Assembly (NCBI GenBank): GCA_900074885.1
Contig: FJUW01000004.1
Location: forward strand, 1,582,225 to 1,646,224
Source of the DNA: Rhynchosporium graminicola
Lineage: Eukaryota; Ascomycota; Leotiomycetes; Helotiales; Ploettnerulaceae
Direction of reading: 5' to 3'
DNA: 64,000 bases
Positions 18,632-60,394 of this stretch are shown piece after piece. The position numbers and the translations under genes were made by a program. Position 1 is the stretch's first letter; each line of letters begins with the position of its first letter. The notes below the pieces were generated by a model that searched no databases, was not told the origin of the DNA, and saw nothing but the letters and a program-made list of their open reading frames with translations.

Positions 18632-18784
18632 GGGGCTGTAACTCAGTGGTAGAGTGCCTCGTTTGCAGCGATGTTCCCAGAACATCTACCTCAGATCGAT
18701 GAAGTCCGGCGTTCGTAAGTTTACTTATGAAACATCTCTCAGAGCCATGAATTAATATGTCTTCTAGGATCCGCCGCTGCTCCA
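18632..18784 (+). tRNA. tRNA-Ala(TGC) gene with two putative introns
   Basis: Three exon pieces fold into a 72 nt cloverleaf: 18632-18667, 18696-18714 and 18768-18784. The acceptor stem is GGGGCTG with CTGCTCC (one mismatch, one G-T pair) and discriminator A at 18784. The D-arm is ACTC/GAGT with loop AGTGGTA. The anticodon stem is CCTCG/CGATG (one mismatch) and the loop TTTGCAT, with anticodon TGC at 18664-18666. The variable loop is AAGTC. The T-arm is CGGCG/CGCCG, perfectly paired, with loop TTCGATC. Insertion 1 (18668-18695, 28 nt) sits after position 37, the standard eukaryotic site, and contains a GATGTTC/GAACATC hairpin. Insertion 2 (18715-18767, 53 nt) lies in the T-loop after C56 and begins GTAAGT, ends CTAG and has a TTAAT branch-like site. 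An oligo-T tract follows at 18795-18799. The cloverleaf forms only if both are removed, so this may instead be a degraded tRNA copy. Confidence 0.7.
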
Positions 18785-18794
18785 GCAATATTAC

Positions 18795-18799
18795 TTTTT
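18795..18799 (+). terminator. Oligo-T Pol III terminator after tRNA-Ala
   Basis: A run of five T residues starts 11 nt after the discriminator base of tRNA-Ala, the normal position and composition of an RNA polymerase III terminator. Confidence 0.55.
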
Positions 18800-57632: not shown

Positions 57633-59449
57633 TATGTAGGGTATTTTTGATGATTCTTGACGAAAGAAATTGACAAAAGAAAAGACGAAGGAAAGAGACG
57701 AAAGAAAAGTCGGAAAGGCGAAGTGTTCCCAGAAGATGGATGTATTGATTGTTGGTTGGTAGATGTAATATGTTGATTGGATGCTGGGTAGATGTGATTG
57801 TTGATGATGATATGGAGATACTAGAGAAGAATATACAAGAGTTATATAGAACTCTTCAAGCTATAAGAGCGCCAGCATATGGATCTCAGCGCAGATTTTG
57901 TTTTGTTAACGTTTGCTCTAACTACCAGCAAACCCAAATCGTAGTAAGCATATCAGCCTCGCGTAGCTTGTGATCTCACCTCACTGTGATCCCACGAGGA
58001 AACAATCCCTACTCAGCCTTCCCAGAGATAGTGTGCATCCAAAAGGTCAACGGTCGTCCCAATACCATGGATGATTTCCTGACTGAGACGTCACGTGGCA
58101 TGGATGACTGTATGTAGCTGCAAGCCAATCTGCACGTCGATCCTCAAAGTGTGGGACGAACCTATCAGATCAACTTCAGCGTAACTGAGGTCGCTGCGGA
58201 TTAGCTCCGGCTGTGTATAATGGTTGTCCAGTAACTATTTCAGGTGGTATTTCTTTTCAATATGATTGAGATGAGGCTTCCATGTCGGCAGCGTGGATAC
58301 TGGGGCCGCAAGTGGGTATGCGGCCGGGAGAAACATATACCGGGAAACAAATCTATTTTGAGGCTCGAGATTCGTTGTCCGAGTAGCGAGGATAAGCTGT
58401 CATCGTGATAATATCAGATTGGATTCCACGATCTACAGGATATCGGCTGCGAGCTATAGGATGATCGATCCGAGCTTCGAAGGATGATTCGAGACCCACG
58501 ACGATGACCTACTCTAGTTGGAGAGGAATGCTTGGTCTACTTGAGGATGACTAGTAACTCTTTGTTCTTGTTCTCATTGCAGTAAGCAGAAGAATGCCGC
58601 GAGGTCGCAGAAAGTAGACTTGGGAAACACAAGAATACTGGACACGGGAGTGCGATGAACGACAAGACACGCTTTTGATTCCAGATAAGCCGAATCGGAG
58701 GAAAATTCTTTGCCTGCGTTCTCACCTGAGACGACTTTCTCTCGAGAGCAAGTAGGCTGGATTCATCTTATCTCGTGAGATTCAGTCGTACAACAACTCG
58801 TCGTACGGGAGACCAACTAAAAGGAATATCCATCCGTAACATCGTGAGCTTCAATTCCAGCCATCGGTCAGGACAAGAATATCAAAAAGCCCATCGACTG
58901 TTATTGCAGAGCCAAGCTAACTTCGACCTATTATTAGGTTTCGCTTAGCTTGGTTGTCAGCCACCTTCGAGGAAACGTTGCGGCACGGTCTAGAAAGCTT
59001 CGGGTTGGTGTGATATGAGAAGACTATCATCAAACCCACGGCCCTGGGATTTGATCAGGATTCGGACTATATTCGAGGTCGCAACTCATTGGACCTTGTG
59101 TCGATCGAAAGAACATTCAGATCTCGCATTCGTGGTACCTAGGCTAGTCACGTGAGTAATTGTTTCTCCCTGCGAATGTTCAAGCCCACTTACTGTGTAT
59201 GTGTAGGTGCTAGCAATCAAGTCGTTATGGGGTTCCGAGGTAGACTTGTAGATGAAGGATTCATCTTGGACTGTCTACCTGGCAAGAAATGCCGCTTTCA
59301 TGTAGCCATGAAAGAAGCCCTTTTTTCTTTCAGCTTCCGAAAGTACAGATATGTAAGTTGAAGAGCTCAAGGCTGAAGTTTCATTGATGTTATATGTAAA
59401 GAAATAGGCTGCCGAGCAAACATGATAACGTTATGGTTGAAAAGCGTGA
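57633..59449. other. Gene-poor interval between the cupin gene and tRNA-Arg
   Basis: Promoter of the cupin gene is at the left, with an AAAGA-rich leader on the minus strand (57655-57715). The rest has no supported gene. Confidence 0.4.
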
Positions 59450-59633
59450 GGTCTGGTGGCGTAAGCGAATCCGGGTCTTCTCAATTTATAGACTACAAAC
59501 TAACAATGCCGTAGCTAATGGTAAGGCGTCAGTTTCCGGACCAGGAATTACTGAAGATTGCGGGTTGTAAGTTGATCCGAGTGCAATGCTGGGATTCGAA
59601 TCTAACTCGGCACAGCGAGTCCCGTCTGGATCG
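59450..59633 (+). tRNA. tRNA-Arg(CCG) gene with three putative introns
   Basis: Four exon pieces fold into a 72 nt tRNA: 59450-59460, 59515-59539, 59549-59566 and 59616-59633. The acceptor stem GGTCTGG/CTGGATC is fully paired allowing G-T pairs, with discriminator G at 59633. The D-stem is GCCT/AGGC with loop AATGGTA. The anticodon stem is TCAGT/ACTGA and the loop TTCCGGT, with anticodon CCG at 59536-59538. The variable loop is AGATT. The T-arm is GCGGG/CCCGT with loop TTCGAGT. Intron 1 (59461-59514, 54 nt) splits the D-stem, with GTAAGC donor, CTAAC at 59500-59504 and GTAG end. Intron 2 (59540-59548, 9 nt) is at the standard 37/38 site. Intron 3 (59567-59615, 49 nt) is in the T-loop after T55, with GTAAGT donor, CTAAC at 59602-59606 and CACAG end. 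All stems pair only when all three are removed. A T6 tract follows at 59647-59652. Confidence 0.85.
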
Positions 59634-60394
59634 GTTGATACCTTCGTTTTTTGTTAACTCTACCTACCTAGGTACTCTTTCATTCGCCACAAGACCAGTC
59701 TGTGTGACTCTGCCCTCTAACGAGATATTCTCTGTTCTCTCAGCTCGGTCTTTGGCAGCTAAAAATAAATTGTAAGTTCCTTTTTTCTTTCTCGGTTTGT
59801 GGGATTCAATCCAGGTTGGCTTCAGTGCGGGGTAGCAGTAGTACAGTAGTGGGGTACTTGACTGCCTTATCTTATCTCCCATTGACAATAGATAAGCGAA
59901 CGGAACAAGCTAGCTATTTACATATGGGTAGGTATTTCAGATGATTCAGTTCAGCAGCATAGTGATGATGCTATGGAGTGACGGTCGAGAACCTCGTAGA
60001 GCAATCTCTGTTTTCGCTTTATACCATAAAGAGCGGTTACTAGAAAAAGTCGATGTACAGTACGCATAACGTTTTGGCTTTCGATCGGTATCAACCTGAG
60101 GCCAAGAATGTATCCATCCCATCTAATAAGATGACCGCCCGCCTTTCACCCGCAAGGGAAACCTTGGAAGGTCCGTAAACCACCATAATCACCGATACGT
60201 TCCACTACAGCAGCCTCCAAGCAACGTCCACATTCAAATCCAAAATATGTGATTGGAGATGGTCCAGTAACGTTACATACCAAATGGCAGGCTGGTATGC
60301 AAGGCTGAGAAACTTCCCATATGTGTAAATACATACATACATAGTACCTTTGAACCTCCTTACACCAGCAAACCACATCAACATCTCGGATACG
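59634..60394. other. Region between tRNA-Arg and the oxidoreductase gene
   Basis: Holds the Pol III terminator and then the promoter of the oxidoreductase gene. Imperfect CTACCTA repeats occur at 59660-59670 and ACATACATA repeats at 60327-60342. No gene is supported. Confidence 0.4.
59647..59652 (+). terminator. Oligo-T Pol III terminator after tRNA-Arg
   Basis: Six consecutive T residues start 14 nt after the discriminator base of tRNA-Arg, as expected for an RNA polymerase III terminator. This argues that the split tRNA gene is, or was, a Pol III unit. Confidence 0.65.

Follow-up and report, generated by a model that had tools for sequence, protein, structure and literature searches.

The tRNA-Arg(CCG) gene of Rhynchosporium graminicola described here, one of at least two dozen such tRNA genes found in the same genome, appears from its sequence to be a functional Pol III gene with a precursor that undergoes spliceosomal splicing; we put the probability of this reading at about 0.88. 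It is also likely that the spliceosome is an obligatory tRNA-maturation enzyme in this fungus: of the tRNA genes found, about three in ten, among them all tRNA-His and tRNA-Ala(AGC) genes seen, would give a tRNA only once mRNA-type splicing had acted on their Pol III precursor, and both the supply for translation and U6 would depend on splicing capacity.

The window, i.e. the whole stretch of 64,000 nucleotides analysed, gave no tRNA in ARAGORN when left unspliced, either with default settings or with introns of up to 200 nt allowed. Likewise, there was no Rfam match in the window at gathering score and none in 59300-59800 at E 5. After removal of all three introns (Table 1), ARAGORN folded the Arg(CCG) sequence into a full cloverleaf with every stem paired, G-U pairs being counted. 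This bears out the preliminary description, according to which the removal of 54, 9 and 49 nt yields a 72-nt tRNA-Arg(CCG) with the discriminator G73. The intron signals reported there, namely the GTAAGC and GTAAGT donors, the CTAAC elements and the YAG-like ends (TAG and CAG), were also recovered, but the distance of CTAAC from the intron 3' end, given there as 5-11 nt, was not, as the elements start 15 and 14 nt before these ends. The complete cloverleaf is accompanied by further features of a functional tRNA gene, a Pol III-like upstream element and a terminator-like T-run. The B box is interrupted in the DNA by intron 2, and no intact internal B box is present. The B-box-like sequence GATTCGAATCT within this intron has a score reached by 1.4% of random 52-mers (P 0.014) and is the best of 29 introns; since a set of 29 introns should by chance include one that scores this high, we do not claim it as a replacement B box. 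In the tRNA-Ala(TGC) gene of the window, where the B box is also split, no B-box-like sequence was found in the intron.

Table 1. Positions of the two tRNA genes and their elements within the window.
Feature	Position	Strand	Basis
tRNA-Arg(CCG) gene, three introns, mature product 72 nt	59450..59633	+	sequence and ARAGORN after splicing
Exon 1, tRNA positions 1-11	59450..59460	+	ARAGORN on spliced sequence
Intron 1, spliceosomal-type, 54 nt, D arm at 11/12, GTAAGC..CTAAC..TAG	59461..59514	+	splice signals
CTAAC, branch-site-like, intron 1	59500..59504	+	sequence
Exon 2, ends at G37, holds anticodon CCG	59515..59539	+	ARAGORN
37/38 intron, canonical, 9 nt	59540..59548	+	ARAGORN
Exon 3, position 38 to T55	59549..59566	+	ARAGORN
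Intron 2, spliceosomal-type, 49 nt, T loop at 55/56, GTAAGT..CTAAC..CAG	59567..59615	+	splice signals
CTAAC, branch-site-like, intron 2	59602..59606	+	sequence
B-box-like GATTCGAATCT within intron 2, suggestive only	59593..59603	+	score scan
Exon 4, C56 to G73	59616..59633	+	ARAGORN
T6 run, Pol III terminator-like	59647..59652	+	sequence
Upstream Pol III-like motif ATATGTAAAGAAATAG, score 11.1 (99th percentile of random 90-mers, 9.1)	59392..59407	+	motif score
tRNA-Ala(TGC) gene, canonical intron and T-loop GT-AG intron	18632..18784	+	window scan, ARAGORN
Ala(TGC) spliceosomal-type intron, 53 nt, at 56/57, GTAAGT..TTAAT..TAG	18715..18767	+	splice signals
T5 run past tRNA-Ala	18795..18799	+	sequence

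The window was scanned in overlapping tiles of 400 bases on both strands, with one or two stretches removed before ARAGORN was run. A removable stretch was 40-75 nt long, started with GTNNG, contained a branch-like element and ended in AAG, CAG or TAG. The 1049 candidate splicings, some of them counted twice through tile overlap, led to two tRNA calls, Arg(CCG) and Ala(TGC). The latter has G3:U70, one mismatch in the acceptor stem and one in the anticodon stem. If the genes work as proposed, standard tRNA searches can overlook essential genes, as both ARAGORN and Rfam were blank in a window in which two tRNAs are hidden.

The gene had at first been taken for a single case, a view that did not survive the search of the genome (55.3 Mb, 121 contigs): the feature is genome-wide and was found in at least 24 tRNA genes, one of them uncertain, with 28 ectopic GT-AG introns and 15 isoacceptors, as well as in U6. 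The tRNA loci were gathered by Rfam RF00005, B-box patterns and single-gene DNA searches and then subjected to the tile scan. The census is partial and not random, as RF00005 scored the best 63 of 2047 candidates and the B-box pattern searches, some restricted to certain B-box forms and one requiring GTAWG, gave lower bounds; further genes, intron-bearing or not, may therefore exist. ARAGORN read 60 tRNA genes without GT-AG removal, so that about three in ten of the genes seen in this partial census carry such introns.

The ectopic introns of the genes found cover the acceptor, D, anticodon, variable and T regions, ranging from 5/6 to 65/66, and none lies at 37/38. According to hand-counted positions, they are located at 5/6 or 6/7 in three Ile(AAT) genes, at 5/6 and in the variable loop of Pro(CGG), at 8/9 in Gly(GCC), at 10/11 in Cys(GCA), at 11/12 and 55/56 in Arg(CCG), at 12/13 in two His(GTG) genes, in the D loop of Leu(TAG) and Ala(CGC), at 33/34 in three Ala(AGC) genes, at 42/43 in Ser(GCT), in the variable loop of Gln(CTG), at 56/57 in Ala(TGC), at 64/65 in three Asp(GTC) genes and at 65/66 in Lys(TTT). 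One of the two Gly(TCC) copies has introns at 11/12 and 30/31, the other at 29/30 alone. The Ser(GCT) gene at locus L148, with two introns, has C33 and T73, may be degenerate and was counted as uncertain. The canonical 37/38 intron is also present in most intron-bearing genes according to ARAGORN and is missing from the three Ile genes. Stem mismatches after splicing were seen in the T stem of Gln(CTG), in the acceptor of both Gly(TCC) copies and in Ala(TGC); the Gly(TCC) copies (L143 and L144) have in common two acceptor U:U mismatches, 3:70 and 4:69. No Phe, Tyr or Val(AAC) genes were recognised in the partial census.

Some calls were dropped. Those at L028 and L029 proved to be Ser genes that are intact, the removal being spurious and located at the edge, and among the alternative splicings at L055, L057, L092, L093, L122, L124, L143 and L148 the expected isotype and the better branch element were preferred. 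The tile scan gave no spliced tRNA at L160 and L127. At the latter locus (G000:C23:334450-334900) there is a short gene that is preceded by the TATA/AAATAA motif, starts in an A-box-like manner and also has GGTTCGAACCC and a T-run; Rfam gave no match to it at E 0.5. Another locus, L052 (G000:C68:747873-748232), resembles a tRNA gene in which 90 nt are inserted close to the anticodon; the insert shows no clear GT..CTAAY..AG and is perhaps a long canonical intron.

The intron signals were measured in 29 introns, 27 from tRNA genes (the second His was left out) and two from U6. Their length of 47-63 nt, with a median of 52 within a search range of 40-75, fits the typical length of fungal introns. 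All 29 follow the fungal 5' splice site consensus GTNNG, which the tRNA search required; the donors are GTAAGT (13), GTACGT (5), GTAAGC (4), GTGAGT and GTAAGA (2 each) and three single forms. The introns end in CAG (15) or TAG (14). All 29 have a branch-like element whose first base lies 13-19 nt from the end, and in 26 of them it is exactly CTAAC or CTAAT; in L103 the only element in that range is TTGAC, and TTAAC sits 27 nt away. The two protein-gene introns read in the window are 44 and 49 nt long, one of them with CTAAA instead of CTAAY. No AG|G preference was seen in the exon bases beside the introns. TTTTT occurs in 0/29 introns and TTTT in one; as only about 0.55 occurrences of TTTTT are expected by shuffling, its absence does not speak for Pol III.

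For the Ile genes L054 and L055, comparison with the intact paralogue L015 sets the intron boundaries exactly on GT and AG, with one base of play in L046. Paralogous introns one nucleotide apart with the same product were observed in Ile, at 5/6 in L046 vs 6/7 in L054 and L055, and in Gly(TCC), at 29/30 in L143 vs 30/31 in L144; these offsets reflect either intron sliding or independent gain. Self-splicing introns of group I or II were set aside, as the introns are far too short for them. Recently spread introners were also rejected, the all-against-all comparison giving only matches of 8-12 nt, mostly around the splice signals.

The upstream motif ATATATAtTtAAATAA was trained on the 60 tRNA genes without ectopic introns and lies mostly 33-60 nt upstream. 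Of the 24 intron-bearing genes, 21 were scored, and in 19 of these the motif exceeds the 95th percentile of random 90-mers, as it does in 53/60 training genes (a training value); its mean score is 11.3 in both gene classes vs -0.1 for random 90-mers. L093 and L103 are below the threshold, and U6 is without the motif. That the motif is common to intron-bearing and ordinary tRNA genes argues for the same polymerase, presumably Pol III. A run of at least four T starts no more than 25 nt from the gene end in 18/23 genes, the exceptions being three Asp and two His genes. It is worth noting that in His L135 and L177 and in Asp L136 the stretch between the tRNA and the T-run contains an extra element resembling a B box or T arm (GGTTCAATTCC, GGTTCAAATCC), 8-26 nt beyond the tRNA. 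Such a downstream element above the 99th percentile was found in 3/23 intron-bearing genes vs 1/36 others, and at these three loci it may possibly act as a compensating Pol III promoter.

The U6 snRNA is transcribed by Pol III elsewhere, and in yeasts the spliceosome is known to process its introns. One U6 gene, L161 (G000:C66 near 344700), was found among the best 47 of 3472 candidates scored. Two GT-AG introns, 56 and 53 nt long, interrupt it after ATTTGGT and GGATGA; their boundaries were set by comparison with the known U6 sequence of fungi. For 5S rRNA, 31 of 32 matches passed the cut-off among the best 47 of 2971 candidates scored; these dispersed genes span 120-124 nt and therefore contain no GT-AG intron, although a 5S gene broken by an intron could escape the search.

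An intact tRNA-Arg(CCG) gene elsewhere, which the preliminary description had regarded as a sign that the present one is a decayed copy, was looked for genome-wide and none was found: the spliced 72-nt sequence matches one locus only, in two pieces, in the 55.3-Mb genome. Two tRNA-Arg(TCG) genes (L004 and L005) could in principle read CGG, so that these codons may not depend wholly on Arg(CCG). For His, which has a single anticodon, the spliced sequence matches two loci interrupted at the same place by introns that differ in sequence. Every tRNA-His must therefore be spliced, provided that the assembly is complete and nothing was missed. Each tRNA-His and tRNA-Ala(AGC) gene found carries an ectopic intron, as do three of the four Asp copies (L142 is without). 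Copies lacking an ectopic intron exist for Ile, Ser(GCT), Gly(GCC), Ala(TGC), Pro(CGG), Asp and Cys (L168).

Since the tRNA introns were found by asking for splice signals, controls with shuffled sequence and permuted rules were needed. A flexible search might build tRNAs from unrelated sequence, as it permits one or two removals besides the canonical intron, and permuted rules do yield a few calls. The same scan gave no calls from 25582 candidates on 20 dinucleotide shuffles of the window. The permutation control covered 129 fetched nuclear loci, with 1021 of 1110 tiles lacking an unspliced ARAGORN tRNA call. Out of 1747 candidates, the true GT-AG rule uncovered tRNAs at 20 loci, which amount to 18 genes because L132 and L167 duplicate L054 and L120, respectively. 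Each of 23 base-permuted rules did so at 0-3 loci, with 25 locus hits in total from 46539 candidates, and these calls fall mostly at the same loci. A further control on loci picked by the true rule itself (23/23 vs 0-4/23 for permuted rules; candidates 219 vs 14-89) was set aside as circular. The shuffle and permuted-rule controls refute a chance origin for the whole set, and its probability is practically nil. The excess of GT..AG over permuted rules also speaks against a view for which the intron-free copies listed above could be invoked, namely that the genes are tRNA pseudogenes with random or intron-like insertions and that intact copies elsewhere serve the cell. Decayed genes would lose exon and intron identity equally fast, so that identical exons with diverged introns count against decay. 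The mature sequences are identical in the three Ile copies and the intact L015 (74 nt), three Ala(AGC) copies (73 nt), three Asp copies (72 nt), two Gly(TCC) copies (73 nt) and two His copies; the bases adjoining the canonical intron were set by eye in this comparison, which does not include the single-copy Arg(CCG). Paralogous introns are only 54-63% identical in global alignment, most of them saturated: eight of 11 pairs are within the range of shuffled cores, and in the other three the similarity is somewhat above that range (P 0.043, 0.037 and 0.007). Splicing also restores G3:U70 in Ala, U73 in Cys and G73 in Asp, as read from the ARAGORN output, and these are identity elements. As the upstream motif is kept in 19/21 genes and the genome searches gave no intact copy of Arg(CCG) or His, decay has a slight probability, even though eukaryotic D- and T-arm insertions are seen as mostly pseudogenes in the review text of PMC4090602.

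Alternatively, the tRNA splicing endonuclease might cut the ectopic introns at bulge-helix-bulge (BHB) motifs, a mechanism that has been put forward for red algae and nucleomorphs. We know of no role of GT-branch-AG signals in cutting by this endonuclease. Strict BHB geometry was found in 0/25 introns, and central pairing in this test was not improved over that with re-dealt 3' exons (1.68 vs 1.52, P 0.22). The probability of this alternative is therefore very slight, although in red algae and nucleomorphs introns do occur at many sites of the tRNA, in some genes more than one (parts of PMC4090602 and PMC3978253). The same signals in 24 tRNA genes and U6, with 0/25 for strict BHB, support the earlier suggestion that the spliceosome, or an unknown activity, processes a tRNA precursor here, and of the two they favour the spliceosome. 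The spliceosome could also act on Pol II transcripts that contain the tRNA, which would then be freed from a longer spliced RNA. The normal substrate of the spliceosome is Pol II RNA, and the B box is split in both genes of the window. However, the upstream TATA/AAATAA element is the same as in intron-free tRNA genes, a T run of at least four is near the gene end in 18/23 genes, and the same introns occur in U6, a Pol III gene elsewhere. A Pol II origin is thus unlikely, with a small probability.

Under the preferred reading, splicing of Pol III precursors by the spliceosome, Pol III would transcribe the precursor from the upstream TATA/AAATAA element, helped by the internal A/B-box. In the nucleus, the spliceosome would recognise the strong intron signals, take out the 54-nt and 49-nt introns and ligate the exons. 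The cloverleaf could fold only once spliced, and the tRNA splicing endonuclease would then cut the 9-nt 37/38 intron, after which the ends would be trimmed. For genes with introns in the acceptor stem, splicing would precede RNase P. We infer that the polymerase is Pol III and the enzyme the spliceosome, that the steps run in this order and that the cell produces this tRNA and puts it to use.

In textbooks, nuclear tRNA introns form a class of their own, nearly always located at 37/38 and removed by a dedicated endonuclease, and the spliceosome is confined to Pol II RNA apart from rare exceptions such as U6 and lichen rRNA. If the above reading is true, both textbook rules, endonuclease-only tRNA introns and a Pol II-only spliceosome, are broken. 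The tRNA supply would hang on the spliceosome, and many natural substrates would be available for studying the splicing of Pol III RNA without a cap or Pol II tail. The presented results suggest that in Rhynchosporium graminicola the spliceosome has taken on the making of tRNA.

Among the papers listed by full-text searches, judged by titles and the start of abstracts and with most subscription papers outside them, there was no earlier report of spliceosomal introns in tRNA genes, and we know of none. Introns of the mRNA type in U6 snRNA genes were reportedly described by Tani and Ohshima in 1989 and 1991. Like the present introns, those of yeast U6 have GT-AG ends and a branch site and lie in a gene transcribed by Pol III, and the fungus's own U6 has two; unlike there, the hosts here are tRNA, in two dozen genes and 15 isoacceptors. 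The U6 introns of fission yeast are cited in PMC10484740. In lichen rDNA, the ectopic spliceosomal introns are removed by the splicing machinery and are likewise of the mRNA type in a non-Pol II RNA of ascomycetes, but the host is Pol I rRNA, and the main text of PMC8527467 does not contain the word 'tRNA'. According to parts of PMC4090602 and PMC3978253, eukaryotic tRNA introns are mostly canonical, and the exceptions in nucleomorphs and a red alga are attributed to the tRNA endonuclease. Like the present genes, those of the Guillardia theta nucleomorph and Cyanidioschyzon merolae have introns in the D, T and anticodon arms, several per gene. However, the introns of C. merolae come with BHB motifs and those of G. 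theta are 3-24 nt long, whereas the introns described here have 47-63 nt, spliceosomal signals and no strict BHB. The canonical 37/38 introns are present in most of the intron-bearing genes of R. graminicola as well, and the ectopic introns differ from them in both site and boundaries.
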